NCBI GenBank assembly: GCA_032433765.1
Contig: JAVIAB010000159.1
Span: forward strand, 55,132,972-55,196,971
Source: Megaustenia siamemsis
Lineage: Eukaryota; Mollusca; Gastropoda; Stylommatophora; Ariophantidae
Length of the DNA: 64,000 nucleotides
Direction of reading: 5' to 3'
Shown here one piece after another: positions 2,045 through 50,776 of this stretch; the first letter of the stretch is position 1; each line of letters begins with the position of its first letter. Position numbers and translations under genes: made by a program. The notes below the pieces were generated by a model. The model saw only the letters and a list, made by a program, of their open reading frames with translations. It had not been told where the DNA came from and did no database searches.

Positions 2045-2580
2045 AATAGGAGCATGTCGTAGGTCATAATATAGATAATCTAAGGTATGCTGATGATACA
2101 GTCTTATTGCTAAGAGTGAAAAGGAGTAATACAAAATGTAAGACACTTTAGTAAAGGAAAGATAAGAAGGAAAACACACAAATAAAGGACTCAGTCTTAA
2201 TAGTAGAACGACAGATAGAACGACAGAAAAAGTGGTAGCAACAAAGCAAAACCTGCACCGCAATGCACAATAAAGACAAGTGGAACAATATTGAAACAGG
2301 TAAACGAATTTAAATATCTGGGGAAAAGTTAACCTCATTTGATAGATGTACAACAGAGATGAGATGCAAAATGGCTCAGGCAAAAGCAGCTTTCCAAAAA
2401 ATGAGGAAGATATTATGCAATCCATTTTTGACAACAGAAATAAGAAAAAGCGTTCTTAAATGTTATGTAGATCCAGTCTTAACATATGGATGTAAATCAT
2501 GGACAATAGAACAACAGACAAGACAATCAACGGAAGCTGTAAAGATTCGGTTTTACAGAAGAATATATACAGAAAAATTG
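2045..2580 (+). mobile_element. LINE reverse transcriptase fragment, family 3 (RTE-like)
   Basis: Plus-strand translation contains the polymerase motif C region (NLRYADDTVLLL near 2070-2110) and, after frame breaks, MAQAKAAFQKMRKILCN, VLTYGCKSWTIEQQTRQS and a KIRFYRRI end. This is the C-terminal half of a reverse transcriptase of the RTE-like kind most abundant in this window. Best parallel copies: 38547-39340, 45205-45770, 46850-47800. Truncated at both ends and frame-broken. Confidence 0.75.
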
Positions 2581-5072
2581 TAATTGTATGTGAAGACTTT
2601 AACAGCCATTCACAGAGCTGGGGCTATGAACATATGGACAAGAGAGGTGAAGAACTTGAAAATTGGCAGGATGACAATGGGCTTACACTATTAAACCAGA
2701 CAACAGATACGCCAACATTCTACTCCAGATCATGGCATACCACATCTACATCAGACCTTGTTTTCCATTCACCAGACCTGGATTGGAATATCACACGAAT
2801 TGTTGAGAAACAACTTGGAGGCAGTGACCATCGACCAGTCTTTTTAGTGGTGCAAAATGAGGCCGTCAGGGAGAACAGCACTCTCTCCAGATGGAATTAC
2901 AAAAAGGCAGACTGGAAAATGTATCAACATTACACCAGTGTACTGACTAAAGATCTAAATACAGACAGAGACATCAACACAATAGTTGATGAATTCAGTA
3001 GACTAATAATACAAGCTGCCAGTAAAACAATACCTAGAGGGGCACCGAAACACTACAAACCATACTGGAGTAGTGAACTAGAGCAACTGCGCAATGACAT
3101 TGAAACATCTCGAAACCAAGCAGAAAATAACCCTTGCCAGGAACACCACAATAACTATCAGCATGCTAAAGCCAAATTTCAATGGACTAAACTACAAGCC
3201 AGACCGAGCAGCTGGAAAGAGAAAACAGAGTCCTTTAATCTTGAACGAGACACAAGAAAAGTGTGGAAGCTTGTAAAACAGCTGAATGATGAGAGTACAG
3301 AAAGGAACACCAAAATTACACTGAAGAAGGATGGAGACATCCTAACAGGTAAGCATGCAGCAAAGCACTTTGCAGACTTCTTTGCAAATGACAATAATAT
3401 TGAAATTAGTCTAGAGAAACGACAAGAGGCCCGTTTAACACAACAAAATGCAAGACAAGAAGAGACCACTCATGAAATCATGGAAATACCCATTACACAA
3501 AGAGAGCTAGAGCTGGCAATAAAAAAGTAAAGTACCCCCGTCACGCCAAGTGGCGTACAGGGAAATATGATGTTAGTGACCCTATATTTTACAGACCTTC
3601 AGCACATGAATTTTTGGGGTGTTGTGGTCAGTATTACGTCCGTGTTGCTTTGCATTATCCAAATTAAAAATGAAAAAGTCACCGGGCAGTGATGGAGTGT
3701 CCAATGAAATGATTAAGAACTTGGGAACTGCAACTAAAGCAAAACTACTGCAGATCTACAACATTTGCTGGATCACAGGTAGAGTGCCACAGGCATGGAG
3801 AGAAGCAATTATAATACCATTACTAAAGCCAGGAAAAGATGGTTCAACGACATCCATCTATAGACCAATCAGCCTTACAAGATGTTTGTGTTAAACAATG
3901 GAACGTATAATCAATCTCAGACTGCAGTGGTACCTGGAAAGTGAAAATCTCCTTGTCCCACAACAAGCAGGCTTTAGACAGTGTTACTCTACCGAAGATC
4001 AGGCAACCTGTCTTTCCCAGGAAATTGAGGACGCGTTTCAAGAAAAGAAACTGGTACTAGCAGCATGGATAGACCTAAAGAAAGCATTTGATAAGGTATG
4101 GAAGGAAGGGCTTTTGAAGAAACTGAGAAATTATGGAGTAAATGGCAGGATGTACAAATGGTTCAAACCATACCTGCATAACAGGAGAGCCAGAGTGCAA
4201 CTGTGTGGTCTTAAGAGTAAGACGGTCTTACTGCGCCAGGGCGTTCCACATGGAGCGGTACTATCTCAAACACTTTTTTTCTGATCTACATCAATGACCT
4301 AGTTACTTAACTACCACATGGCATCAAAGTGGCAGTGTATGCATATGACTTGGTAATGTGGTGCACAGAGGAGTATGCAACAGTGGCCTCCAAGTTGCTA
4401 CAAAGAGCTATGAATGCACTGAATTCATAGACAAATAGATGGTGTATCAGCATCAATACAGACAAATGCAGCACTACACTTTTCACTCTCTCTCCAAAAC
4501 AAAAAGCAGGAGCCATCTACATAAACAATGAGCCTGTGAAAGAAGACATACAAGCTACGTATCTTGGAGTTACATTTGATAACAAACTATCTTGGAAACA
4601 GCAGATAAATAAGGCAACCCAAAAAGCAAGGAGGAAATTGGCTATTCTAAGAAAGCTGTTTGGAATCACATGGGGTGCGAGTGGGAAAATACTCAGTAAA
4701 GTTTACCAACAGAGTATACGCCCACATTTAGAATATGGATCATCCGCATGGTGCTCAGCATCAAACACCACACTGCAAGAACTGGATAAAGTACAAAACC
4801 AGGCACTTAGGGTCATAACAGGAGCAATGAAATCAACACCAATATTGGAGATGGAGAAATTGTGGAGGATACCAGCACCGAGAGAACGGAGGAACACAAA
4901 GGTGCTGTATCAGGCAGAAAAATGTGCATGCATACCGAGACATCTAATGAAGGACCGATTTCAAAATGTTGCATTGGGACGACTTAAGAGAAGCAGTTGT
5001 ATCCACCAAGCCAAGCGTATTAGTAGACAAACACTAGACATGCCAAACAGGCCTAAACAAAAATTGATCTAA
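2581..5072 (+). pseudogene. Decayed LINE: endonuclease and reverse transcriptase pseudogene
   Basis: A 5'-truncated non-LTR retrotransposon. The first open part (to 3530) holds the C-terminal half of an apurinic-type endonuclease: a CEDFNSHSQSWG segment, TSTSDLVF and the catalytic SDHRP motif near 2825. The reverse transcriptase follows: KSPGSDGVSNEMIK and YRPISL near 3670-3880, motif A AWIDLKKAFDKVW near 4055-4095, motif B QGVPHGAVLS near 4240, motif C altered to AYAYDLVMW near 4340, then YLGVTFDNKLSWKQ and RPHLEYGSSAW. Stops at 3892-3894 and near 4425, a frame change near 4280, and a SINE inserted at 3526-3655 show it is dead. The altered catalytic box independently says inactive. Confidence 0.85.
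3526..3655 (-). mobile_element. SINE-A fragment inserted in the LINE
   Basis: Reverse-oriented 3' part of the SINE seen in full at 16078-16335 and 54897-55160: it begins with the AGTAAAGTACCCCCGTCACG end and runs to the GTAATACCGACCAC region. It splits the LINE reading frame between the linker and the reverse transcriptase, so it is younger than that LINE. Confidence 0.8.
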
Positions 5073-5519: not shown

Positions 5520-5525
5520 CACGGG
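5520..5525. repeat. Left target site duplication CACGGG
   Basis: Six bases identical to 15021-15026, immediately outside the terminal inverted repeats. Uninterrupted SINE copies carry this hexamer once (GCGGCACGGGCGTAATACC). Six-base duplications are the rule for Polinton/Maverick integration. Confidence 0.93.
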
Positions 5526-6369
5526 AGTAGTGTAGGTGACTGTGAACTCAACAGAAAAGTGGAATAACATGCACCGAAATACAATAGATTTGGCACCGAC
5601 TTTGCACCGACTTTGCACCAAAACGGTGCCAAAAAAAAAAAAAATTTTTTTTCGAATTCGCGATTTTTTCGAACTTCATAATTTTTTTTTGGGAAAAATT
5701 TTTTTTTGGGAAAAAATTTTTTTTTGGTGTTCGTCAGTTTGTCGAATCACTGAGAGCTTAACCGCAGGTAAATTCAATGGAGACTCGGTGCTAATCCGGT
5801 GATCGTCGTTCCGTGTCCGGTGATCGCCTCGCTCGTGTTAGAAATTTGTGAAAGAGTATTTTAAAAGAGTATGTGATAAATATGTTTCAAAACGTTAAGA
5901 AATATAGTTAAATGTGATAAAACTGATTTTTAAAAAAGGCGAAATAATAAAAACTATGAAAAAAAATAAGCTGTAAATACTGACGGAAAACTAGTCAAGA
6001 AACTGGAATGACATTTTTGTTGACTGGGCTAGTGGTACTTGAGGAATGCTATTGTTAGAATCGCTTACAAGGAATCGTGGTCATTGTTAGGAGCTTCATT
6101 GTTAGGCTCCGTGTTTAGAGTTAAAGTTAGGTAGAGGCATGTCGGGGACAGCGGTTCTAAAAGGGGGTATCTCGCGGGTCGGATGGCGGGTCGTCGTGCG
6201 GGTGGGGAAAGGTGCCTTTATTGGTTATCATCATGTGTGGGTATTAGGCAACAGGAGGCGACATGTAAAAAAAAAAATGCTGACAAGCAATTATTAGTAT
6301 CGTTAGCATCATGTATTCTGACCTTCCCTCCTTGTTTTCTAACACAACTTCCTAGATTTCTGACCATGC

Positions 6370-6650
6370 CCCTCAACATCCCCCTTCATGTGCCTACTAT
6401 CATCATGTGCCTCAACACTATCACCATGTCCCTCAACACTATCATGTGCCACCCTCAACACCACCCTTCATCTTGTGCCACCCTCATCATCATCATCATC
6501 ATGTGCCTCAACACCACCCTTCATCTTGTGCCACCCTCATCATCATCATCATGTGCCTCAACACCACCCTTCATATCAGCCACCCTCAAGACTATCATCA
6601 TCATCATGTGCCTCAACACCACCCTTCATATCATCAAGCCACACAAAGTA
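6370..6650. repeat. CAT-rich minisatellite inside the left inverted repeat
   Basis: Irregular repeats built from CATCATCATGTGCCTCAACA and CACCCTTCAT units. The mirrored copy in the right repeat (13915-14190) has a different number and order of units, so this block is the main source of divergence between the two ends. Open frames through it (histidine/serine-rich) are low-complexity and I do not regard them as genes. Confidence 0.8.
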
Positions 6651-6714
6651 TCAATCATCTCTCTCACACATTCATGGTAAACCAAAACAAAACTCGTTCT
6701 ATATTTCTCACAGC

Positions 6715-6720
6715 TTTATT
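6715..6720 (-). terminator. AATAAA poly(A) signal for the PC4-like gene
   Basis: AATAAA on the minus strand about 32 bases after the stop codon at 6752, within the left inverted repeat. The same signal in the right repeat serves the protease gene, so the two outermost genes share duplicated 3' ends. Confidence 0.6.
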
Positions 6721-6751
6721 ATTAATACAACAAATATACGACACATATATA

Positions 6752-7432
6752 TTAATGTCCGGTCGTTGATAATTTTAAGCGTCTGGGTTTCCTCCCTCCT
6801 GTTTTGGTGGTACTGTTTGTTAAATGTCTATCAAACACGGGTGCATAGGAAGTTTCATTAGCCTTCAAAACACAACCGCCCTCCATTTTGACAAAACCTT
6901 GATCAAAGCTGGAATAGGTAATCGGTGACTCTGCTGAAACACCCGCGGCATTCATATTGGGTGCCGGATCTGTCGTCTGATTAACAAGAGCGAGGTTCCC
7001 TTGATTAACAAAGGGGGGCGTGTAGTCGATGAGATTCGTGTTAACAAGAGATGGTATGTAGTTTTGGTGGTTAACGACAGGCGGCGTGTAGTTGATCTGA
7101 TTAACGAGAGGTGGCGTGTAGCTGATCTGGTTAACAACAGGCGGCGTGTAGTTGAGGTTAGCATAAGCGGTTAAAATTTCCTCTCGCATCTCGACTAACG
7201 TGATAAATTCCTCTCTCGATAGTGTTATCCCAGTTCTGGTAGGAAACTTAAAAAAACTATCACCGCTATATGTCCTTATATTTATCAATGGTCTGTTACG
7301 AAAAACACAAACCGAGACTGCCTTAACGCCATCTTTAGACAATGGAACTACAGTCTCATTTCCACGTGACATAAATATGCGCTGATCACTGAGATCAAAC
7401 GAAATTGGCGTATTCAAGCTACACGACTCCAT
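6752..7432 (-). CDS. PC4-like single-stranded DNA-binding protein of the Polinton-type element
   Basis: 226 residues from the first ATG (an upstream in-frame TTG at 7438 is not needed). Residues about 18-90 resemble the PC4/p15 transcriptional coactivator fold: a basic start, alternating strand residues, PLINIRTY (about 48-55), then TRTGITLSREEF (about 65-76), which fits the family pattern of a P-x-R/K-x-GI-x-L-x-x-E turn, and a final helix. PC4 domains bind single-stranded or melted DNA. Residues 94-145 carry five imperfect ten-residue repeats of the form NYTPPVVNQI; the tail is basic (GRKPRR). It is the only gene on this strand of the element and is transcribed divergently from the ATPase. 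The stop lies inside the inverted repeat. The PC4 assignment rests on visible motifs only; a role in element replication or transcription is inference. Confidence 0.75.
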   Translation of the reverse strand: MESCSLNTPISFDLSDQRIFMSRGNETVVPLSKDGVKAVSVCVFRNRPLINIRTYSGDSFFKFPTRTGITLSREEFITLVEMREEILTAYANLNYTPPVVNQISYTPPLVNQINYTPPVVNHQNYIPSLVNTNLIDYTPPFVNQGNLALVNQTTDPAPNMNAAGVSAESPITYSSFDQGFVKMEGGCVLKANETSYAPVFDRHLTNSTTKTGGRKPRRLKLSTTGH

Positions 7433-7879
7433 ATTCAAAGAAAAAACAAACCACCTGGCAACAGACGTTGGTTATGTGTGTGTGTGTGTACACTGCTCGA
7501 CTGGGGGGTTTTTATACCCGTTTATCGGGTCGAGGACCGTCTATTATCGGGTCGAGGACCGTCTATTTATAGCAGCTAACGCAATACGTTATCAGGCGTG
7601 GTAATCAGTCGTGTTGCGACATGTTCAGTGACCTCTGGAACTGACCCAATAGGGGGGTGATGTGTGGGGAAATATGATGCGTGTAACAATTCGGTCTCAG
7701 GTAACGCGGCTTGAGACTAGGAAACTCCTCCTCCTCCTCCCCCTGTCGTGTTTATATAGGTTGTGGATTTTAAAAATAGGTGTTAGTTGAAGAGGGGGAA
7801 ACCTCGCGCGCTGACCTAAAATCACTCGTTGTTATTTTCGTCGGGGGCGTAATCACTAAAGTTAGTAGCACTTGCGAGG
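7433..7879. promoter_or_regulatory. Divergent promoter region between the PC4-like and ATPase genes
   Basis: A 447-bp gene-free stretch separating the two divergent transcription units. On the minus strand TATAAAAA (7516-7509) lies 77 bases before the PC4-like ATG. On the plus strand TTATATAG (7752-7759) lies about 120 bases before the ATPase ATG. A perfect 22-bp direct repeat (TATCGGGTCGAGGACCGTCTAT) occupies 7523-7566 and a TG repeat 7473-7489. It is the only long non-coding stretch inside the element apart from the inverted repeats, so it may also hold a replication or control site. Confidence 0.6.
7523..7566. repeat. 22-bp direct repeat in the divergent promoter
   Basis: Two adjacent identical 22-bp units containing GGGTCGAGGACC, immediately upstream of the minus-strand TATA box. 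A binding site for an element-encoded factor is possible but not shown. Confidence 0.75.
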
Positions 7880-8497
7880 ATGGATCCCCGATGGAATCAT
7901 CCCTTCACAGCTCTGATAGCCGGTCCTACCGGGTGTGGGAAAACGGTATTTGTGCAAAAGTTTATACAGAACCTTCACGAGCTAGCTGTCCCCGTACCGG
8001 AGGAAGTTATATGGTGTTATGGGGAATGGCAGCCGATATACGAGACTATGGGGTCAGTGAGATTTATCGAGGGTCTACCAGACGTCGATAAATTGGAAGG
8101 TGGTAAGAAGAGAAGACTGATCGTCATCGATGACTTGATGTCTGAGACGGACGAGCGGGTAACAAAATTATTCACCAAAGGTAGTCATCACAGAGATATT
8201 AGTGTGATGTACATTGTTCAAAATCTATTCGGAAAAAATAAAGAACATCGAACCATAAGTCTCAATACGCACTATTTAGTCCTTTTCAAGAACCCGAGAG
8301 ACGGGAGTCAAATTATGAATCTGGGTAAACAAATGTACCCGGGTCGGGTGGGGTACCTCCAAGATAGTTTTAAGGACGCGACAGCGACTCCTCACGGTTA
8401 TTTGCTGGTCGATCTTCGTCAGGACACACCTGATAATCTTAGGTTGAGAACAAAAATATTCCCGAGGGAGAGACAAATCGTCTACGTGCCAAAGTAG
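7880..8497 (+). CDS. A32-like/FtsK-HerA packaging ATPase
   Basis: 205 residues. P-loop GPTGCGKT at residues 15-22, Walker B with LIVIDD at 80-85, and a conserved YIVQNLF stretch at 111-117 in the position of the sensor/motor helix. This set is typical of the genome-packaging ATPases of Polintons, adenovirus-like and NCLDV-type elements, which pump DNA into a preformed capsid. The ATG follows a TATATA box by about 120 bases and no upstream in-frame ATG is closer. It heads the plus-strand gene row. Length is near that of other Polinton ATPases. Intact. Confidence 0.9.
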   Translation: MDPRWNHPFTALIAGPTGCGKTVFVQKFIQNLHELAVPVPEEVIWCYGEWQPIYETMGSVRFIEGLPDVDKLEGGKKRRLIVIDDLMSETDERVTKLFTKGSHHRDISVMYIVQNLFGKNKEHRTISLNTHYLVLFKNPRDGSQIMNLGKQMYPGRVGYLQDSFKDATATPHGYLLVDLRQDTPDNLRLRTKIFPRERQIVYVPK

Positions 8498-8503
8498 AGA
8501 ATC

Positions 8504-8830
8504 ATGTGTGATCAAGCACTTAGACGGCACGGTGAAATGTTGAAATGTATGCGCGCCGCCTCGCCGACCGGTTTAAGAGCCATATTAAAAACAGCCTCTC
8601 CCAAACTCATTAACTTTTTGTGCGAGTGTTGTCATAACATATTAAAAGGTAATGTTAGACTCACTCAGCGACAGAAGTGCGAGCTACGTCGACACAAGAA
8701 CAAGTTGAGACTTCTCACTAAAAAGAAACCGAGTCTTAAGCGGCGGAAAGAGATTCTACAAACCGGTGGGTTCATAGGTGCTTTGCTCCGTCCTATATTA
8801 AGTATTCTCGGTGGAGTACTAGGTGCGTAA
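8504..8830 (+). CDS. Small basic protein with hydrophobic C-terminus, possible minor virion protein
   Basis: 108 residues, starting six bases after the ATPase stop. The middle is strongly basic (RRHKNKLRLLTKKKPSLKRRK, about 62-82). The end is hydrophobic and glycine-rich (GGFIGALLRPILSILGGVLGA). QTGG-F at 86-90 and ILGG-V at 101-105 fit the adenovirus-protease pattern xGG-x, so the C-terminal peptide could be released by the element's own protease. Proteins of this style sit next to the ATPase in related invertebrate elements. I know no established function; a membrane-active or DNA-condensing minor virion peptide is inference. Confidence 0.7.
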   Translation: MCDQALRRHGEMLKCMRAASPTGLRAILKTASPKLINFLCECCHNILKGNVRLTQRQKCELRRHKNKLRLLTKKKPSLKRRKEILQTGGFIGALLRPILSILGGVLGA

Positions 8831-8832
8831 CA

Positions 8833-9297
8833 ATGGCCAAAAAAATGATTTTGGTGGATCCTCGATTCCTCGAGGGTCTTAAACAGACTACTACCACGTC
8901 CTATAGCCCACCCGAGGTGATCGGTGACAACTTGAGAGATTTAGATGATGAAATGCAACGCATCCTATTCCGCGATGATTTAGCACCCGCCGATAAGGCC
9001 AGAGTGTACCAACGTGCCCTGCATCAATATTTAACTAGATTGGAGCAGTATAAACGACGCTCATTGGGCTCGGTCGATCTCATTCAACACAACACGGCAA
9101 CAGAAAAAACACATTCCCCACCAACACCATCATTCGAGCTATCACCAGAGCAGACCAAGACACCACCACCACCACCAGCGGAAACCCCAAAGGTAGGTAA
9201 TGAAACCACTCCGCCCGTAGCCACGTATAAACTGAGACCTAAAAAAAGAAAGAGCGGAATCCCAACACCAAAATGGGAACGGTGGAGAAAATATTGA
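8833..9297 (+). CDS. Uncharacterised Polinton protein with proline-rich linker
   Basis: 154 residues, starting two bases after the preceding stop. Residues 1-75 are mixed helical, with a segment LDDEMQRILFRDDLAPADKA then a helix rich in Tyr and Arg (about 57-75). Residues 90-120 are a Pro/Thr-rich linker including PPPPP. The end is basic (KLRPKKRKSG, then WERWRKY). The last 25 bases overlap the integrase start in another frame. I recognise no named domain; its position between ATPase and integrase is shared with related elements. Function unknown, a virion or DNA-binding role being possible from the basic tail. Confidence 0.7.
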   Translation: MAKKMILVDPRFLEGLKQTTTTSYSPPEVIGDNLRDLDDEMQRILFRDDLAPADKARVYQRALHQYLTRLEQYKRRSLGSVDLIQHNTATEKTHSPPTPSFELSPEQTKTPPPPPAETPKVGNETTPPVATYKLRPKKRKSGIPTPKWERWRKY

Positions 9298-10342
9298 GAC
9301 GTCGTTACTTTGACCCTAGTCGACCAGGGGCGTATAGTGGTGCAACGGCCCTGCAACGTAACACCAAACTGGGACTCGCAAAGATCAAACAATGGCTGAG
9401 TCATCAGGATACCTATACCCTTCATAAACCAATTCGTCGCAGATTTGAAAGGCGTCCCATTATAACGAGTGGCCCCCAACAGCAATATCAGGCAGACCTA
9501 ATCGATTTGAGACATTTGAAAAAACACAACGATGGATATTCCTATTTGGTTTCTTGCGTGGACGTTTTTAGTAAATTCGCGTGGTCTGTACCGATACGAA
9601 CCAAAACGGGGAAATCCTTAGTGGAAGCCGTCGGTAAGATATTTCTCGATGGGAAACCCGCAAGTTTTCAAACCGATAAGGGGTCAGAGTTTCTGAACAG
9701 AACATTTCAGAAATTCCTCGCTGACAACAACGTTCACTTTTTCACTACGCAGAACGAAGATATCAAGGCCGCCGTGGTGGAACGCTTTAATAGGACTCTG
9801 AAACAACGGATGTGGCGATATTCACGAAATCCAATAAGTTGTCTTATGTCCGAGTCCTCCCCGCCCTACTTCGAAGTTATAACCATTCGTATCACAGAAG
9901 TATAAAAATGGCACCGGTCGACGTCAACGCAGACAATCAAGAACAGGTATGGAACACGTTGTATAATAGCAAACGTAACTTTAAATTTGAAAGACCCCTG
10001 TACAAGCCCGGTGATCGAGTTAGACTGGTCCTGGGCAGAGCCAATTTTAAAAAGGGTTATGCCCCGGCTTGGACGGAGGAACTGTTTTCCATCAGTCGAG
10101 TAAATGAAACAAACCCCGTTACATATGTGTTGAAGGATGATAAGGGCGATGAGATAGAGGGGTCATTCTACACACCGGAAATTCAAAAAGTTGGAGACAA
10201 ACACGAGTACAGAATCGAGAGTGTCATAACCGAGCGTCGCACATCCTTTGGGCGAAAGGAGTGTTTAGTCAAATGGTTTGGGTACGATTCCTCATTTAAC
10301 ACTTGGATACCGTCCAAGGACATTGTCAGATACAAAAACTAG
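9273..10342 (+). pseudogene. DDE (retroviral-type) integrase with C-terminal chromodomain, frame-broken
   Basis: Catalyses insertion of the element's DNA ends into the host. The core has D75 (in QADLID), D135 (in QTDKGSEF) and E170 (in VVERFNRT), 34 residues between the last two. The C-terminal part holds an SH3-like stretch (KPGDRVRLV, about 9995-10025) and a chromodomain (YRIESVI ... LVKWFGY ... TWIPSKD, 10208-10326), which would read histone marks during target choice. The reading frame changes by one base near 9817-9825: homologous sequence continues in the -1 frame, while the first frame runs on into unrelated residues until 9905. No slippery heptamer is visible there, so a one-base deletion is more likely than programmed shifting. 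The rest is well preserved, so the damage is recent. The start ATG lies inside the previous gene. Confidence 0.9.
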
Positions 10343-10344
10343 AG

Positions 10345-10650
10345 ATGCGAGAAGAAGAAGAGGAGGAAGTGGTAACTTTTGGTGGAGAGCCCGATTTGCG
10401 AGCCGTAAACTCGGGAGTCGGGAGAGACGGCGAATCGCGCTGGTGGGGGTCGATGTTTGGGAAACTATCCCCCTACTTAGAACTTGTCTTTATTTGTCAA
10501 GTGGTAGTTATATATACAGTTGTAGCGGTCTCGCTGTTCAATCTGACCACCGAAAAGCCAGACGCGAAGGAGGGAAAACTGTGGATAGCCCTACTGAGCA
10601 GCTGTTTGGGTTACATGCTACCGAATCCAAACTTGGAGAGGCGACGGTGA
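10345..10650 (+). CDS. Small membrane protein of the element
   Basis: 101 residues from the first ATG, two bases after the integrase stop (an in-frame TTG at 10303 would overlap the chromodomain and is not preferred). The N-terminus is acidic (EEEEEE at 3-8), then a hydrophobic helix of about 22 residues (YLELVFICQVVVIYTVVAVS) and a second hydrophobic stretch LWIALLSSCLGYML before a short basic tail. Looks like a one- or two-pass membrane protein. Similar small hydrophobic proteins with an LL-S-S-x-x-GY end occur at this place in related invertebrate elements. Function unknown. Confidence 0.7.
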   Translation: MREEEEEEVVTFGGEPDLRAVNSGVGRDGESRWWGSMFGKLSPYLELVFICQVVVIYTVVAVSLFNLTTEKPDAKEGKLWIALLSSCLGYMLPNPNLERRR

Positions 10651-10669
10651 AACGAGTAAAAAAAAAAAA

Positions 10670-11467
10670 ATGAGTTTTTATGTCACCCTGCCCAGCAACG
10701 CATCTATGGAACTTTTTAAGGATAATAACCCAGGCCACTTTTTCGTTAAACTCCCTCAGACCATTGACATTTCGACGCAGTATGAGATCGCGCTGGTGGA
10801 GATACAGTTTCCGCTAAATTATTTCAATGTAATAGAGGGTGATGTCTGGATTCGCTACGAATCTCTCGATAACGACGATATTTGCGACGCCAGATTTTAT
10901 TTCAACGTGACATTGGAACCTGGGTTATACACGAAACCCGATGCGTTCATCGGCTCGTTGAACGCGTCGATCGTAAAAGCGGAGGATGAGTCGTACAGGG
11001 GAGAGAAAGGGAAAAAAATGAGATTCATTTACGCAAAAGAGGTGAATAAAGCCATCTTGAAACTTTACGAGAAAGGAGTCAGTGTTACCATAAGCGACAC
11101 TTTGAAAAACATGTTAGCCTTCCCCACGACCACAATATCAGACACGGCTCCCGATATCTTCAGCGTGGGTGTAATGGACTTGGAAAGTGTTGCGAAGAAT
11201 GTCTACGTCTACTGCGATCTCGTTTCCCCCAGACCGGTCGGGGATGTGATGGTGCCTCTCCTCAGGAGCGTGCCTGTTCTCAATAGAAATCACACCTCGG
11301 TGTTTCAGATCTACGATAAGCCTCACTACCTACCCCTGAGTAGATTTTCCTTCGATACCGTCGAGATCCTTTTAGCCAACGAACACGGAAAAACCATTCC
11401 ATTCACCAGCGGGACGTCGGTGCTAACGGTACACTTTCGAGTCAAGAAGCATCTCGAGCTGGTATAA
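10670..11467 (+). CDS. Penton/minor-capsid-like protein
   Basis: 265 residues. Starts MSFYVTLPSNASM, has KLPQTIDIS near 28-36 and EIALVEIQFP near 39-48, and ends with a predicted run of short beta strands (TVHFRVKKHLELV). Proteins with this beginning are regularly found upstream of the major-capsid-like gene in Polinton-type elements of invertebrates and are taken to be the vertex (penton) or another minor capsid protein with a single jelly roll. I see strand-rich sequence but no diagnostic motif, so the structural role is inferred from family likeness and place. The stop overlaps the next start by one base (TAATG). Confidence 0.7.
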   Translation: MSFYVTLPSNASMELFKDNNPGHFFVKLPQTIDISTQYEIALVEIQFPLNYFNVIEGDVWIRYESLDNDDICDARFYFNVTLEPGLYTKPDAFIGSLNASIVKAEDESYRGEKGKKMRFIYAKEVNKAILKLYEKGVSVTISDTLKNMLAFPTTTISDTAPDIFSVGVMDLESVAKNVYVYCDLVSPRPVGDVMVPLLRSVPVLNRNHTSVFQIYDKPHYLPLSRFSFDTVEILLANEHGKTIPFTSGTSVLTVHFRVKKHLELV

Positions 11468-11940
11468 TGGTGAAACACACTCCCCTTCATAGAGATTTTG
11501 AGTTATACGAAGACTTTTACTGTTGTCAGGCGGGCGATGGGATGCCCGTGTTTATAGGAGGTCGAAGTCAGAGCGGTCGAGGAATCGGTAGTTTCTTCGG
11601 TGGAATCGGGAGGGCTATTTTACCCTGGTTAAAAACCGGCGGTAAGGCCTTGCTCAGAGAAGGCTTGGGGACCGGTCTGCAGGTCGCACAGGACGCATTG
11701 GCCGGGAAAAATGTCGGTGAAGCTTTCAAAGAACGAGCTAAGGAGGCCGGTCAGCGGTTGCTACACGGGGCCGTAGACCACTTGCGTGATAACGACCAAT
11801 CAGGAAGTGGTTTACGTCAAAGCAGAAAGCGAGTTATGAAGCTACCTCCACCAGGAGAACCCGTTACGAAGAGGATAAAACCGACAGCTGGACGGTTCCC
11901 CCTTCATTCGGTGCACAACAGAGGAAGAAGACGAGGGTGA
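11467..11940 (+). CDS. Core/pVI-pX-like virion protein with protease cleavage motifs
   Basis: 157 residues. Three sites fit the adenovirus-protease consensus (M/I/L/N/Q)xGx-G: QAGD-G at 21-25, QSGR-G at 35-39 and QSGS-G at 111-115. Between the last two lies an amphipathic, glycine-rich region (IGSFFGGIGRAILPWLK at 40-56, then alternating basic helix to about 107), like the membrane-lytic or core peptides of adenoviruses and Polintons. The tail is basic (RKRVMKLPPP, VTKRIKP, RRRG). Maturation by the protease encoded at 13283 is therefore likely. The start overlaps the previous stop by one base, suggesting coupled translation or separate initiation on overlapping messages. Confidence 0.78.
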   Translation: MVKHTPLHRDFELYEDFYCCQAGDGMPVFIGGRSQSGRGIGSFFGGIGRAILPWLKTGGKALLREGLGTGLQVAQDALAGKNVGEAFKERAKEAGQRLLHGAVDHLRDNDQSGSGLRQSRKRVMKLPPPGEPVTKRIKPTAGRFPLHSVHNRGRRRG

Positions 11941-11962
11941 CAAAGGATATTTTCGACTAATA

Positions 11963-13267
11963 ATGTCCCTCATTCACCCCAAATCGTGCGAATGTCTTCA
12001 CTCTGGTTTGGATTTATTTAGCGTTCCACCAACGCAGACATCTCTCGACTCTGGCCAGTTTATTGAAATTCGGCCGATCGCAGCTTTGTCGCATAGCGCA
12101 CCAATAGAGTTTTTCATTTCTGGAAACAGCGAGGAGTATCTAGATCTTTTCAACACGTTTTTACATCTGCGGGTCAAGATCACCCTCCCGAATGGTGATA
12201 GTGTACCTGTCGATGCTGAGGTAGGACCGGTCAACAATTATCTTCACAGTCTATTTTCACAAGTCGACGTATCGCTAAACGACACGTTGGTTACACCGTC
12301 GGAGAATACCTATCCTTTTAGAGCGGTGTTTGAGGCCACGCTAAATTACGGAGAGGATGCGAAAACGGGATACTTGACGGCCGCTCTGTTCTACAAAGAC
12401 ACAGCTGGCCACCATGACGATTTGAAAGAAAATGAGGGTTTTAAAACACGGCGCGATTTGACTTCGGGTAGTAAAGAGGTTGAAATGATGGGTCGTTTGC
12501 ACTTTGATGTCTTTGTGCAGGATCGTTACATGTTAAACAGAGTCGATGTAAAGATAAAACTCACGCCCTCGAAGGATGTGTTCAGCCTCGCGACTCACGA
12601 TAACTCTGTGGGTTATAAGAGTGTTATCACCTACGCCGCGCTCGTGGTAAGGAAAGCTAAGCTAAACCCCGCGATTTCTCTGGCCCACGAAAAGGCTCTC
12701 TTGAGCGGGAATGCGCGGTACCCGATCAAGAGGGTTACCATCAAGACCTTTTCCATCGCTAGCGGGATGCTTTCCCACAGTCAAGACAATTTATTTTTGT
12801 CTCAAACACCGACCCGTATAGTGATAGGTCTGATTACGGCCAGTGCTTTTAATGGTGTTTACACAGCTAACCCGTTCAATTTTCAACACTTTGGTCTGAT
12901 TTATATGAACCTGACGGTCGACGGGAAATGTATCTCGGGAAAGCCTCTAACTATGGACTTTGAACGAAATCAATACGCGAGAGCTTTCTTCGGCACAAAT
13001 CTGGCCATGGGTCTGATTGGTAAAGACGCTGGGAATAACGTTGATTATAGAGAATTCAAGGACGGATACTGCCTATTTGGTTTTGACCTCTCGTCCAGCC
13101 TACTGGACGGCTCCCATTTTGAGCTAGCCACAAGCGGACCCTTGTCGATAGAACTCAAGTTTGCCGCTCCCACCACTACTCCCCTACAAGTTATCGTCTA
13201 CGCAGAGTTGGACTCGGTGCTCGAGGTGTCCAAGACAAGGCAGATTCTAACAGACTTCGCCGTTTGA
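11963..13267 (+). CDS. Major-capsid-like protein (F54H12.2-like)
   Basis: 434 residues, the largest product of the element. It resembles the protein widely annotated in invertebrate genomes as F54H12.2-like, which accompanies Polinton integrases and is considered a double jelly-roll capsid protein. Visible marks: SLDSGQFIEIRPI (28-40), PIEFFISG (48-55), a conserved NNYLHSLFSQVDVSLN stretch (about 91-106), YPFRAVFE (117-124), and strand-rich C-terminal half with FQHFGLIYMNLTVDG (about 309-323) and a final LQVIVYAELD. It is shorter than the 550-700 residues common for capsid proteins of classical Polintons. Intact. Function as capsomer is by family likeness. Confidence 0.82.
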   Translation: MSLIHPKSCECLHSGLDLFSVPPTQTSLDSGQFIEIRPIAALSHSAPIEFFISGNSEEYLDLFNTFLHLRVKITLPNGDSVPVDAEVGPVNNYLHSLFSQVDVSLNDTLVTPSENTYPFRAVFEATLNYGEDAKTGYLTAALFYKDTAGHHDDLKENEGFKTRRDLTSGSKEVEMMGRLHFDVFVQDRYMLNRVDVKIKLTPSKDVFSLATHDNSVGYKSVITYAALVVRKAKLNPAISLAHEKALLSGNARYPIKRVTIKTFSIASGMLSHSQDNLFLSQTPTRIVIGLITASAFNGVYTANPFNFQHFGLIYMNLTVDGKCISGKPLTMDFERNQYARAFFGTNLAMGLIGKDAGNNVDYREFKDGYCLFGFDLSSSLLDGSHFELATSGPLSIELKFAAPTTTPLQVIVYAELDSVLEVSKTRQILTDFAV

Positions 13268-13282
13268 GAGAGAGAGTCGAAT

Positions 13283-13837
13283 ATGAACACGAGGGAGATT
13301 TACAACCTTTTGATGTCGGATATTTTCGTTCGACGTTGTTCCCTTGTTAGTGTCATTCCACGAAACCACTTACCGCCGAGCATCGACCCAACGGCGACCG
13401 CGGCCTTTGTCATAAACACCGACCCTGCCCACGAACCCGGTGAGCATTGGGTGGCCCTATTTTACAACGGTCTCGGCGAATGTGAGTATTTCGATTCCTA
13501 CGGTTTGCCTCCCAGACACGTGGATATTTTAAACTTTATAGAGCAAAACTCACACGTTCCATTCGTCTACAACCCGCGGGTGTTGCAAGATTTGTTTAGC
13601 AACACGTGCGGTCTATATTGTGTTTATTATATACTTCTTAAGTGTCGTGGCGCGAAACTTAACAGAATTCTCATGCCTTTTTCATCGAGACAGCACGTAA
13701 ACGACCGTATCATTTATCGTTTGCTCGCCCGTGGATACTTCGGCTTCGAGGGGCCCGCCCAGACGCTTAAAATTATCAACGACCGGACAGTAATATATAT
13801 GTGTCGTATATTTGTTGTATTAATAATAAAGCTGTGA
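13283..13837 (+). CDS. Adenovirus-type (adenain) cysteine protease
   Basis: 184 residues. Catalytic set in the order of the adenain/Ulp1 clan: H55 in EHWVALF, D71 in EYFDSYGLPP, Q102 in VLQDLFS and C109 in NTCGLYCVYY. These enzymes cut virion precursor proteins at (M/I/L/N/Q)xGx-G sites during maturation; such sites are visible in the 11467 product. The last 27 codons lie inside the right inverted repeat, in a different frame from the PC4-like tail in the left repeat, so the C-terminus (about residues 159-184, hydrophobic VLIIKL end) is probably a by-product of reading into the repeat. It closes the plus-strand gene row. Confidence 0.9.
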   Translation: MNTREIYNLLMSDIFVRRCSLVSVIPRNHLPPSIDPTATAAFVINTDPAHEPGEHWVALFYNGLGECEYFDSYGLPPRHVDILNFIEQNSHVPFVYNPRVLQDLFSNTCGLYCVYYILLKCRGAKLNRILMPFSSRQHVNDRIIYRLLARGYFGFEGPAQTLKIINDRTVIYMCRIFVVLIIKL

Positions 13838-15020
13838 GAAATATAGAACGAGTTTTGTTTTGGTTTACCATGAATGTGTGAGAGAGATGATTGATACTTT
13901 GTGTGGCTTGATGATATGAAGGGTGGTGTTGAGGCACATGATGATGATGATAGTCTTGAGGGTGGCTGATATGAAGGGTGGTGTTGAGGCACATGATGAT
14001 GATGATGAGGGTGGTACAAGATGATGATAGTGTTGAGGGTGGCACATGATAGTGTTGAGGGTGGATAGTGTTGAGGCACATGCTGATAGTAGGAAGGGGT
14101 TGTTGAGGGTGGCACATGATAGTGTTGAGGGACATGGTGATAGTGTTGAGGCACATGATGATAGTAGGAAGGGGGATGTTGAGGGGCATGGTCAGAAATC
14201 TAGGAAGTTGTGTTAGAAAACAAGGAGGGAAGGTCAGAATACATGATGCGAACGATACTAATAATTGCTTGTCAGCATTTTTTTTTACATGTCGCCTCCT
14301 GTTGCCTAATACCCACACATGATGATAACCAATAAAGGCACCTTTCCCCACCCGCACGACGACCCGCCATCCGACCGCGAGATACCCCCTTTTAGAACCG
14401 CTGTCCCCGACATGCCTCTACCTAACTTTAACTCTAAACACGGAGCCTAACAATGCAGCTCCTAACAATGACCACGATTCCTTGTAAGCGATTCTAACAA
14501 TAGCATTCCTCAAGTACCACTAGCCCAGTCAACAAAAATGTCATTCCAGTTTCTTGACTAGTTTTCCGTCAGTATGTTAACTTATTTTTTTCATAGTTTT
14601 TATTATTTCGCCTTTTTTAAAAATCAGTTTTATCACATTTAACTATATTTCTTAACGTTTTGAAACATATTTATCACATACTCTTTTAAAATACTCTTTC
14701 ACAAATTTCTAACACGAGCGAGGCGATCACCGGACACGGAGCGACGATCACCGGATTAGCACCGAGTCTCCATTGAATTTACCTGAGTTAAGCTCTCAGT
14801 GATTCGACAAACTGACGAACACAAAAAAAAAAATTTTTCCCAAAAAAAAATTTTTCCCAAAAAAAATTATGAAGTTCGAAAAAATCGCGAATTCGAAAAA
14901 AAATTTTTTTTTTTTGGCACCGTTTTGGTGCAAAGTCGGTGCAAAGTCGGTGCCAAATCTATTGTATTTCGGTGCATGTTATTCCACTTTTCTGTTGAGT
15001 TCACAGCCACCTACACTACT
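13758..15020 (-). repeat. Right terminal inverted repeat (1263 bp)
   Basis: Complement of 5526-6787; inner limit where CCCAGACGC stops matching, outer limit CTACACTACT at 15011-15020. Differences from the left copy are a handful of substitutions (for example G/A at the thirteenth or fourteenth base), A/T-run lengths and unit number in the CAT-rich block. Confidence 0.93.
13825..13830 (+). terminator. AATAAA poly(A) signal at the protease 3' end
   Basis: AATAAA overlapping the last codons of the protease gene within the right inverted repeat, mirror of the signal at 6720-6715. It would end the plus-strand transcripts. Confidence 0.6.
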
Positions 15021-15026
15021 CACGGG
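15021..15026. repeat. Right target site duplication CACGGG
   Basis: Identical to 5520-5525; see the left copy. Confidence 0.93.
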
Positions 15027-40409: not shown

Positions 40410-43400
40410 TTACGATTTTCTTCCTCCAAGCCGGAACTTTTCCCATTTATCTTGTAGTACAGGAATAATGTACATAAATGGGTTTGCTGCAGACCTTATG
40501 GGAATAACGAGAACCGTTGTCCAGCCATAAACGTCATTGTTAATCTCGTGTCCGCCTAAAGCTATAAATCCAAGAAGTCCTAAGGAAACCAACAGAGAAT
40601 GTTGGACAGAGATAACAGAGATAACTGTTTGTTCATTACTGTATCTTCTATCAACACAGTGGTCAAAATAAGCCTCCTCTCTGACATAGCTCGGTAGATG
40701 ACTCTTTGAGAGAAAGTGATGGCGAAACAAAGCAAGAAGTTGAGCACAATGAACACGCCAAATGAGAACGCCCAGCCATTGATCCGCATTGTTGACAAAG
40801 GTAAGCCAATACACATCGAGTTAGAAGATTGTAACTCAAACCTGAACACAATTGACGTCAGTGCAAGAAGAATAGCTATGATCCAAGACAACAAGAGAGC
40901 AATGATTTTAATAAAGTTTGGAATATTTCCTTCAGCAAATGAAAACTTCATTGTCAAGCATCTGTCCAAATTAATGAGAAAAATTAGGAACATGGACGCC
41001 TCACTAGACAGGGTAGCCAGGACACCAGCAAGTCTACACAAGATATGTTGTCTCCAGAACCAGTCGTTTAAAACATAAACGTCCCGATAGTAGTGATCTG
41101 CGCCAATAATAATGACCAGATAGGTTCCCATAATAAAGTCGGATATACCTAAGCTCGTCACACAAAGTTCAAAACACGTTCTCTCAGATAACCTTCCCCA
41201 GAGTACACGACAGACAGTTACACCAACATTTCCAACAACGATAAGACAAGAACCGCCCAGAGGAGAACGGCTTGGGTTTTGTCACCAACCAGATCAAAAC
41301 AAGAAGAAATGACGTTGACAGGGGCGTGGCACATATAGTCTGGTACATTGTTTCCTCTCATATGTGGACAACACATCTCAAAATTGTCCGTGTACAGATG
41401 TTGTCTCATATTGAGGCCGTTAAGAAAATCTGAAGTAAAACTGTTCAAATGTAATCCACGCAGACCTAATGTTTGGAAGGTCACCATAAAGGGAAAGAGA
41501 CGTTTATGAAACCTCTCGACAAATGTAAAACTCAGATCTAAATGTTTCAGAGTAGGAAACTCTTTAATGAAAGATTCGTGAAGATAGAACAGGCTCGTAT
41601 GGGAGAGGTCCAGGGTTTCTAGAAAATGAAGCTGTAAATGTTGCACAGACACGAGTTCTGCATTATGGGACAAGTTCAAAAGACGAATATAAAGAGATTC
41701 ATAGAACAAAAAATCCCTGCCATCGATTGCTTGTATTTGGTTATAACTAAAGTCTACATCTTGAAGGGAGTATAACTGAGCTAGAAACTTTGAGTTTAAA
41801 AGACGGATCTGACATTTAGAAAATTTAATAAAAACCACTTTTGGGGGATTTTGGCTCCAATAAAATTTATCGCTGAAAGATCTACTCCGGACATGTCCAC
41901 ACATCTCGTTTCTTTGTCAAATAAAGGGAATTTTGATAGTGGGATGGATTTGTTGTAACTTGATACAGTGACTGTCCCCGACACACAGCGGAAACCTTCA
42001 GAGCACTTCAAGTCACAATCCACTTCGTCGTCTTTATGTGGACAGTCAGGATGTCCGTTACAGACTAGGTCTGGATGTAGACACACTTTACTATCCCAAC
42101 AGGCAAAGTTTCCATTGCATGGTCGAATAGTATCACTTTGTTCGTCTTCTCCTGTAGGACAATCGTTAGTTTTATCAAGAACATAATGTTGAGGGATACA
42201 GTATGTGCTCGGACATTTAACATATCCAACTGGGCATATAAAGTCTGTACATTTCTCTAGATGGGACATATCTCTACAGCCTAGAACAACCCCGTACGTG
42301 TTTCTAACATAGACACACCTGGGAGACCATGTACTATATCCCTTTCGCTTGTGACAAGTGTCTACTGTTTCCAGTTGTCCTATAGTCTCGTCCAACGGTC
42401 CTTCCCATCCAATACAGTCAACGTGCCCATCATTGAGCTGGGAGAGCCGAACGCATCTGTCATTACAATAGAAGACACATGTCTCGTTTCTGTTTAGTTC
42501 TTGTGTAGGGCTTCATTTTCATCGCTGGACTCAACCCCAGTGCTGTAACCAGAAACAATACAATCAACTTCTCCATCATTAACCCACCGCCACAACAAAC
42601 AAGAACCGTCACAACAATAGATCCCATGACACAGATTAAAACTTAGTCCCCTGTTTTCTATGCTACGATCTGAACACAAATCTTCATCGCGGTTGTTACT
42701 GCAATCAGTGACGCCGTCACAGACCATAGAGTAGGAGATGTATGTTGACGTGATTGTGTCTACTGCACAGTCAAAGAGGGGAAATAACTCGTATTCTGTT
42801 TGATGGAGAAATTGGAGGAAATCTTTGTTGGCAAAGTTAAATGAAACAGACACAAGGTTATCTTTAAACTTGACAAAACTTCCACTTTGTAAAGCTCTGT
42901 TGAAGCTTTCATTCGTGGCTGGTTTGATGGTCAAAGTAAAGTTGTCCTCAATTCTACGAGGTAGGGAAAATTCACACATAAGAAACAGTATTTTTATTTG
43001 ACAATCAACATCGACCCATCCATCAACCCAATGTCCTCCATACTGGGTCTTGTTAGAGACATTCTTGAGATCTTCAATCCAGTCAAACTGCCAGACGACG
43101 CATTCTTTACTGTACCCACCAGAAGGTTTACCGGAAGCCAATGATTAACGACAAGTGGACGTTTCACAGATTTCTGATATACTTTCCAACCAAATGTTTT
43201 GGAAATTTGTGTTAAGTCTCTTACAATCGCCAAAGGAAAGAACGCTGAAATAGGAAAATGCCGGCTTCCTTGTCTGATGTTATTAAGAAACGAGTATATT
43301 TGAATTTGCACAAATACCAACTCTATTTTACTCTCAATAGCAATATCATTTGCCATTAGGTAAGTATAACAATCATCGTATGCCATTTCAACTTTTCCAT

Positions 43401-48671: not shown

Positions 48672-50776
48672 AGCTTGTTTCATAACTCGTGCCCAACTTT
48701 TAAAATCGATAGCTTTTTAACCGCTTGTTGTAAGTTGTTCAAAATTTGCATGTAAGGTTATAATGATTAGAACCCAACAGGGAATTAATTTCATTAAAAA
48801 AAACATTTGGTTATTATTGTTGCTTATTTGATTTATATAAATTTATAACGACCCATTGATGTAGTCAAAACTTAATGTTTACAGTATTTTAAGTTAAAAA
48901 TAGCAAGTAAAAATCCATACACGGTAAAATTGACCTGTTTGCACGCTTTCTCCGTGGTTTTTTGACACAATTAGACACTTGTAAAAAACACGAAAAATGG
49001 TGTGTTCCATTTCCGTTCATTCATAGGTGCAGACGTGGAACGATAACATTTATCATGAGTCTTAAAATGAAATTCTGCAGTTTACAAAATATCGCAATAA
49101 AAATGTATGACTATTTTTGCAAAGAGGCTAAACGAGGAAGATTATTTCATTCTTTAGAAAACCCTGAGAATAGGGCAAGACACATTTTGGATTTATCTAA
49201 ACGGTCATTTAATCGCTGGATTCAAGCACGTGACCGTCAATGTTCAAAATATACAAAATCACAAGGAAGAGTAAAAATGTTGGATAATTTCGACAGTGAA
49301 CTTATTAGAAGTTGACAAAATGTTGGGTATGAATGAAACTGTTACAATAAGAAAATTAAAAGTATCGCTGAAAAAGAACAACAGTATTGAAATATCAAAG
49401 TCTACATTATGGAGGAATGTGAGAGCTGCAGGCTTTACATTCAGAAAGTATTCCAATGGACGAAACATCATCTGTGAGAAGCCACATATAGTAGTCATGA
49501 GAAGCAAGTACTTACGTGAAGTAAAATAGGTGCGCAAGCAAGGTTATGATATTGTGTACTTGGATGAAACATGGATCAATGCTCACCACACTAACTAAAG
49601 GGAATGGCAGTCATCAGATGGAAAGATTAAGAGATTAATACCTAGCAGCAAAGGACAGCGCTTGATAATTGCTCATGCAGGTAGTCGACAACATGGACTA
49701 ATACAGAATGCAGAGCTCATTTTTCTTTCAAAATCCATAGACAATCGGGATTATCACTATGAGATGAATGGTCATATATTTAGACATTGGATTGAAAATT
49801 ATGTTCTCCCATCACTAGATCGACCATCTTGCCTAATAATGGACAATGCAGCGTACCACAACATTGTTGCACTTGAAGATAAAGACCAGACGTCACCCAG
49901 TACAAAAGATGCTATTAAGATATGGCTCACAAAGGAGCACATACAATTTAATAACATGTACTTAAAACCTGAATTACTATCTCTAGTAAAGCAAAAACAA
50001 AGGACACAGATTTTTCAAATAGATAAGATTATCCAAGAGCACGGTCATATAAGTTTGAGGCTGCCACCTTACCATGCTCATTTAAATCCAATAGAACTAA
50101 TGTGGGCAAAATTAAAAGGACAAGTGGCAGATGAAAATACAACATTCAAAATATGCGATGTAAAGACTCTTGCTAATCTCGCTTTATTAAATATAGACAA
50201 AGATTATTGGGCTAAATGTGAAGACCACGTCTTAAAACAGGAAGAGGAATATTGGAAAAATGTTGGTTTGTGGAATGTTCAACCCCAAACAGTTATTAAT
50301 CTTTTAGACTCGTCTGATTCAGAATGAAAGTATATAGCCCCCACAATGTTGGCCCCTATATTACCTTAAATTAGTTCAACAAACGGTCCTTATCAGGACC
50401 ACACAACTATGAAAATTGGACATACAGGTATACCTTGATATTATCGTCCGTCCTCGAACTGAGAAGACAATAATTCTCGTGGTGTTTTGTATTATTAGGT
50501 TATTTCCCCATTACGGCCACGCCTTTACGTAGTGAAAATTAATCATAGACCAGCAACTACGGTAATTTCTATTATTTAGGGGTTCACAATTTACAATTTT
50601 GACAAACATCAAAGAAATTCACCGCTTTAAGAAAACTGCAGCTGCAAGATATTTGTTAAATATACATTTAAAGGGTCTTTTGCATTCTAATAACATTTGG
50701 AAAATTTCAACAGTTTTTAACAAACGGTTACTGAGTAATAGCGTTTTGAAGTTGGGCACGTGATTTGAAACGAGCT
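48672..50776 (+). mobile_element. Tc1/mariner-related DNA transposon, long D-E spacing
   Basis: About 2.1 kb. Imperfect terminal inverted repeats: left AGCTTGTTTCATAACTCGTG, right end the complement of AGCTCGTTTCAAATCACGTG, both followed by CCCAACTT and looser similarity to about 80 bp. It sits in a LINE family 6 copy whose halves flank it. The expected TA duplication is not clear on the right. It holds the transposase pseudogene at 49055-50327. Confidence 0.8.
49055..50327 (+). pseudogene. IS630/Tc1/mariner-type transposase, broken, DD83E spacing
   Basis: About 420 codons. N-terminal helix-turn-helix region (LDLSKRSFNRWIQA near 49185-49225), then the catalytic core: first Asp in YLDETWINAH (about 49560), second Asp in LIMDNAAYHN (about 49840), Glu in HLNPIELMWAKLKG (about 50090). 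I count 83 residues between the second Asp and the Glu, far from DD34-41 of usual Tc1/mariner families and next to the DD82E families reported in this superfamily. A frame change near 49300, a TAG at 49527 and a TAA near 49597 kill it. Confidence 0.85.

Follow-up and report, generated by a model that had tools for sequence, protein, structure and literature searches.

The 64,000-nt stretch of the Megaustenia siamemsis genome analyzed here (the window, whose positions serve as coordinates unless another locus is named) contains at 5526–15020 an element of a type that we name V. V is probably the virion-and-integrase half of a split (bipartite) Polinton, with a second family of elements, P, as its polymerase half and with common ends by which both would be recognized. 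V is integrated at many places as a 7.8–10-kb unit with 6-bp target-site duplications (TSDs) and without a polymerase. The family B DNA polymerase (PolB) missing from the window element is found instead on separate elements with homologous ends. Traits of a multipartite system are present, i.e., complementary gene sets on V versus P (in two of two P elements searched) and common terminal sequences. Judged from these sequences, it is quite possible, if short of probable, that the pair constitutes the first bipartite Polinton: a DNA virus or transposon of animals with a double-jelly-roll capsid, whose genome exists permanently as two linear elements that integrate separately and need each other.

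Structure and gene content of the V element

The window element measures 9,495 bp and is flanked on either side by the 6-bp TSD CACGGG. Its terminus, AGTAGTGTAGG at 5526, recurs on the reverse strand at 15020. The terminal inverted repeats (TIRs) extend over 1.26 kb; 1,229 of 1,251 aligned columns are identical, and gaps take up 37 positions (the alignment includes 7 flanking bases); with the repeat-rich middle excluded, left and right TIRs mismatch at 7 of 852 plus 1 of 254 aligned columns. A PC4-domain gene is directed leftward, and genes for an ATPase, two small proteins, an integrase, a small hydrophobic protein, a penton-like protein, a core protein, the major capsid protein and a protease are directed rightward. 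Polinton/Maverick traits present in the window element comprise the 6-bp TSD, long TIRs, an rve integrase with a chromodomain, a predicted double-jelly-roll capsid protein, a packaging ATPase and an adenain-like protease. No PolB lies in 5526–15020: the PolB of a related contig, L001, gave a single match in the whole window, with an E-value of 3.1, at 42.8 kb, beyond the element. The longest gene-free stretches are 447 and 330 bp, and a deletion scar in the 447-bp gap was ruled out, as tblastn gives no PolB remnant there. Ends, Pfam, tblastn and gaps thereby confirm the initial annotation, which had described a 9.5-kb element with TIRs, a TSD and virion, integrase and PC4 genes that has no PolB and no gap fit for one.

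Relatives of the capsid protein are found on three contigs of bacterial metagenome-assembled genomes (MAGs), L001, L002 and L003, with the MAG labels Escarpia endosymbiont, Breoghania and Nomurabacteria, respectively. These are probably contamination, because bacterial MAG contigs here carry Polinton-type virion genes. L001 (11.8 kb, from the MAG labelled as a tubeworm endosymbiont) has the virion gene order of V and, upstream of its ATPase, a PolB of 1,401 aa (Pfam DNA_pol_B_2, E 2.8e-9). L003, which begins at the ATPase, also carries genes for integrase, capsid and protease, and L002 has penton, core and protease genes and a broken capsid gene. Six of 119 contigs with capsid homologues exceed 12 kb, which is a hint only, with size limited by assembly. 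The features of the window element, with identities to these relatives, are listed below (strand in brackets; a dot marks features without strand).

5520..5525 (.): left TSD CACGGG, matching the right copy
5526..6787 (+): left TIR, terminus AGTAGTGTAGGTG; its outer part shares homology with PolB-element TIRs
6752..7432 (-): PC4-domain protein, 226 aa, C-terminal half repeat-rich, stop codon inside the TIR; Pfam PC4, E 1.1e-7; tblastn match in 18 of 20 sampled copies
7433..7879 (.): region between the divergently oriented PC4 and ATPase genes; TATA-like boxes, putative promoters, at 7516 (-) and 7753 (+)
7880..8497 (+): packaging-type ATPase, 205 aa; 58% identity to L001, 48% to L003; Pfam matches sub-threshold only
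8504..8830 (+): conserved 108-aa protein; 38–39% to L001 and L003
8833..9297 (+): 154-aa protein, in the same position as a longer (229–273 aa) protein of L003 and L001; N-termini alike by eye
9273..9905 (+): integrase N-terminal part (rve core), first frame; Pfam rve, 3.4e-13
9812..10342 (+): integrase C-terminal part (chromodomain), second frame; Pfam Chromo, 1.4e-6
10303..10650 (+): small conserved protein with a hydrophobic stretch, start codon uncertain; 45–47% to L002 and L001
10670..11467 (+): penton-like minor capsid protein, 265 aa; 32% to L001 and L002, assigned by sequence similarity
11467..11940 (+): basic core-like protein, 157 aa; 37–43% to L001–L003, assigned by sequence similarity
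11963..13267 (+): double-jelly-roll major capsid protein, 434 aa, F54H12.2-like, by predicted structure
13283..13837 (+): adenain-like cysteine protease, 184 aa, 3' end entering the TIR; 36–38% to L001–L003
13758..15020 (-): right TIR
15021..15026 (.): right TSD CACGGG

Modelling predicts a double-jelly-roll capsid fold for the 434-residue protein. Its AlphaFold model (mean pLDDT 83) has the Sputnik capsid as top Protein Data Bank match (Foldseek, E 2.6e-14) and is nearest to the capsid proteins of Sputnik, PBCV-1, iridovirus and mavirus; among viral models, its top match is a bracovirus-encoded protein (35% identity). The structure model of the PC4 protein is of low confidence (mean pLDDT 34). 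Protein searches with PC4 at E 0.001 and E 10 turned up no relative, a search evidently blind to distant relatives, because locus C47 in the same genome has a 43% PC4 relative. The Pfam adenovirus endoprotease (C5) match of the 184-residue protein reaches E 6.8e-4 and 19.8 bits, under the cut-off of 21.3, and the 154-residue protein has no tblastn match with L001–L003. The motif TATAWA occurs five times in 7433..7879, against a shuffle mean of 0.56 (0.65% of shuffles reach five), suggesting that this is a promoter region. Scans of viral_contigs with proteins or alignments and with the end pattern found nothing.

The integrase gene of the initial annotation is present, but in the window copy it is split over two frames by a single break near 9821; in 8 of 11 other V copies examined, it forms one open frame. 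A programmed frameshift was rejected on account of these open copies and of the absence, by eye, of a slippery heptamer.

V copies across the genome

In the 2.59-Gb assembly containing the window, the capsid gene is matched at 99–100% identity at no fewer than 97 places (97 scored of 4,451 candidates), 92 of the 97 being without internal stops; the scored places are the best-scoring ones and hence biased to intact copies. Twenty V copies were sampled for ends and gene content. Both ends are readable in 14 of them (L034–L043, L045, L046, L048 and L051; 7.8–10.0 kb), and the flanking 6-mers agree in all 14, with twelve different 6-mers. PC4 is present in 18 of the 20 left arms by tblastn, with an open frame of at least 239 aa in 12. 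Since 14 of 14 end-readable copies are separately integrated with matching TSDs, V is a complete unit and not a truncated Polinton, as had been proposed. The gene order of the window copy equals that of L001 minus PolB, as it would if a larger Polinton had undergone a single internal deletion here; yet the fourteen other copies are separately integrated with the same layout or in shorter forms, which leaves this explanation a vanishingly small probability. Chance or in-situ deletion is ruled out by the independently integrated copies.

Computed against the window copy, the ratio of nonsynonymous to synonymous polymorphism (pN/pS) is 0.12 in 28 copies of the penton gene, 0.09 and 0.31 in 11 copies of the two integrase parts, and 0.17 in 29 copies of the capsid gene (a biased sample). 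The V penton and integrase genes are under purifying selection, and the low ratios of penton, integrase and capsid show that selection on V genes persisted as V spread in the absence of PolB.

The exact 27-base V-type end motif is found at 548 sites in the genome, compared with none for its reversed control. Among 100 of these 548 sites, 36 convergent end pairs span 1.3–12.0 kb, 32 of them 8.5–12.0 kb, and no pair is 12–40 kb long. By arithmetic, a one-piece element with V ends would need about 12.9 kb; therefore, no such element is seen in this 36-pair sample. A third class with V-type ends, 8.5–8.6 kb long and making up 5 of the 36 pairs by length, is seen at C8 12210468, C24 24992891 and C46 56488809 (L117–L119, L122); three sampled copies are 99–100% identical over 270–294 bp, and the 1.8 kb read contains repeats and integrase scraps only.

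The terminal AGT run differs among V copies, from AGTAGT to AGTAGTAGT and longer. Three pairs of V capsid genes stand head to head (C124 62877108/62882389, C1 18837316/18841194 and C47 28414502/28420164; L090, L091), and those of C124 and C1 are inverted right-arm duplications, resembling defective genomes of linear DNA viruses.

Polymerase elements with V-like ends

With the L001 PolB, at least 33 PolB places were found (33 scored of 11,254 candidates), mostly without internal stops, and none of the 97 capsid places lies less than 478 kb from any of the 33 scored PolB genes. Four of the loci examined, C123, C51, C87 and C124, belong to the P family of 8.5–10.5-kb elements with a family B polymerase; three of these loci have the following boundaries (coordinates by arithmetic).

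C123, 48088154–48098685: P element, 10.5 kb, TSD GTCATG twice (6/6)
C87, 17174075–17184265: P element, 10.2 kb, TSD CCCGTC twice (6/6)
C51, 140763518–140772011: P element, 8.5 kb, TSD CGCGCG/CGCGGG (5/6)

The ends of C123, C51 and C87 match V (AGTAGT..GGTGGCTGTGAACTCAG), and C124 has a related right end. The P TIRs of all four loci are 74–89% similar to the window TIR over 66–677 bp; over the outer 370 bp, ungapped identity is 95–98% between V and P and 97% between V and another V subfamily, with many gaps in both comparisons. The PolB palm segments of P elements are 97–98% identical to one another, compared with 67% to C47. In all sequence of C123 and C51 outside PolB, no capsid, penton, core, ATPase, integrase, protease or PC4 gene was detected at E 0.001; an acidic leftward open reading frame (ORF) lies ahead of PolB in both. 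At the P element C26 (26606264–26616083, 9.8 kb), a PolB place lies between two V-type ends with the TSD TGCGGC twice, the left end being the exact terminus of the window element and the right end a second V-type variant; its PolB is 94% identical to that of C123 over 265 aa, in an open frame of 492 aa. Elements with the ends of V and a PolB thus exist (the P family, C26 included). A simple deletion of such an element, raised initially as a possible origin of V, does not account for it, because the two searched P elements have no virion genes and no listed end pair fits both gene sets.

We infer that V is replicated in trans by the P polymerase. In such a system, PolB from P would start protein-primed copying at the AGTAGT... 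ends of V and P as free linear DNA, while the PC4 protein of V would bind the single strands released during copying. The ATPase, capsid, penton and protease of V would package both V and P, and the V integrase would insert both, giving rise to the 6-bp duplications. The common ends would serve as an address read by both the polymerase of P and the integrase and particle functions of V. End-initiated copying of linear DNA has its model in adenovirus and phi29 biology; by this analogy, the variable AGT triplets, the inverted right-arm duplications (L090, L091) and the mixed ends of C26 would fit copying that starts at the ends of free linear DNA, with V and P exchanging templates.

Alternatively, V might be copied by host replication only and move as an ordinary integrase-driven transposon, given that it encodes an integrase and that cut-and-paste needs no element-encoded polymerase. 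The variable terminal AGT run, the inverted right-arm duplications and the ends common with PolB elements argue by the same analogy for copying as free linear DNA, which makes host-only copying very improbable. Where the initial annotation had left the choice between a host polymerase and that of another element, the latter is now the best explanation.

Other PolB elements and the origin of the proposed split

C47 is a one-piece Polinton with capsid (67%), protease (60%), PC4 (43%) and PolB genes, in that order. It is similarly diverged from both halves (capsid 67%, protease 60%, PolB palm 67%), and a one-piece relative of C47 is the most likely ancestor of the divided genome. The suggestion that gene order and PC4 define a separate lineage is not borne out: L001, with PolB, has the same virion order, and PC4 is not lineage-defining, because the one-piece C47 Polinton has both PC4 and PolB.

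Further PolB elements are palindromic, with two arms head to head and a PolB in each: C106 13618653–13631447 (L077, L081, L082; TSD CACGGA), C90 50181514–50192963 (L078, L083, L085; TSD AACCTG) and others (L076, L079, L080). Five of five such PolB pieces are palindromic and two other PolB flanks (L074, L075) are not; tblastn detected no virion genes in the palindromic pieces. The palindrome centre, 114–220 bp long, is bounded by AGTAGT..ACTACT and in C90 and C154 contains the end sequence of the window element, in the form of a 140-bp unit with V-type ends on both sides. Over its first 74 bp, this unit matches the window end at 98.6% identity in C90 and 93.2% in C154. The end variant of C154, AGTAGTAGCGG, is also found on V copy L039. 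These centres and the shared variant would suit a V polymerase drawn from palindromic PolB elements or one-piece Polintons and not from P. However, the palindromes' own termini, AGTAGTATAGCAGGG and AGTAGTATACAATG, are unlike V, as are the end-like motifs of C47, and among the PolB elements examined, extended TIR homology to V is limited to the P family; we regard this source as improbable.

V and P might instead be independent non-autonomous derivatives of a lost or rare one-piece Polinton with these ends, V using any polymerase and P parasitizing V capsids, with no stable partnership. One-piece Polintons related to both halves are present in the genome (C47), other defective derivatives carry V-type ends (the 8.5-kb class and the inverted right-arm duplications), and most P copies are broken. 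However, the 36 end pairs include no one-piece element with these ends, and purifying selection on the V integrase and penton is unexpected for mere passengers. Such an origin is unlikely on balance, if a possibility of some weight.

Several observations weigh against a bipartite Polinton. On the side of V, 6 of the 20 sampled copies have no readable end pair (three with end-like runs, three with none), and 28 of the 100 listed end sites, themselves drawn from 548, are unpaired. Purifying selection is unclear for core (pN/pS 0.62, 29 copies) and for PC4, with too few changes (5 synonymous versus 13 nonsynonymous in 17 copies). P copies are fewer than V copies and mostly broken: the PolB N-terminus is matched at 24 places (80% identity or higher, alignments of 250 aa or longer), just 2 of which lie in an open frame of at least 1,500 aa. 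In addition, the left end of C124 was not found, the virion-gene search covered two P elements only, C123 and C51, and alternative PolB sources (one-piece C47 and the palindromic PolB elements) are present that could serve V.

If the bipartite reading is true, multipartite life would extend to a new branch of DNA viruses, seen within a single sequenced genome in which many insertions are dated. The lineage would have ceded its polymerase to another element, yet selection would have continued to act on the virion and integrase genes during recent multiplication. Genome splitting, the cohesion of partners via common ends and Polinton particles in animals would become testable in a living mollusc.

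Surroundings of the window element

Elsewhere in the window, two related receptor-like genes (40580–43141 and 60774–63998, minus strand) combine LDL-A-like, leucine-rich and 7-helix parts; they presumably resemble the snail receptor GRL101 and fit a mollusc host. ORFs at 2499–3530, 4536–5072 and 49662–50327 appear, as judged by eye, to be relics of a non-LTR retrotransposon and a Tc1/mariner-like transposase.

Comparison with known systems

Polintons are described both as self-synthesizing elements and as viruses, and their usual definition includes a polymerase of their own. V resembles Polinton/Maverick elements and adintoviruses in its 6-bp TSD and long TIRs, in a chromodomain-bearing rve integrase, in its packaging-type ATPase and adenain-like protease, in the predicted double-jelly-roll capsid protein and, judged by sequence similarity, in a putative penton-like protein. 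It differs from Polinton/Maverick elements in being without its own PolB, which is carried by a second element with homologous ends. In the literature searched, one open-access library only, no Polinton divided between two elements was found. Bidnaviruses, segmented viruses with a protein-primed PolB, resemble V and P in the common ends of their segments.

In the passage cited from PMC11071296, bidnaviruses are PolB-using animal DNA viruses, some members of which have more than one genome segment; unlike V, they have a parvovirus-type capsid and an NS1 helicase, and an integrase is not named in that passage. Adintoviruses, by the definition given there, encode PolB (PMC11071296). In the same paper, meldviruses and adabscoviruses have adenovirus-class virion genes and no recognizable PolB or replicase, their genomes being described as without PolB and integrase, or as circular with an unknown replicase (PMC11071296). 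As far as this account goes, they are like V in having virion genes without a recognizable PolB, whereas V retains an integrase and would have a PolB partner. V would also resemble virophages and satellite viruses, as a capsid-encoding agent relying on the functions of another agent. Unlike in those systems, the supposed partner of V shares its ends and is itself without capsid genes, and dependence would therefore be mutual.

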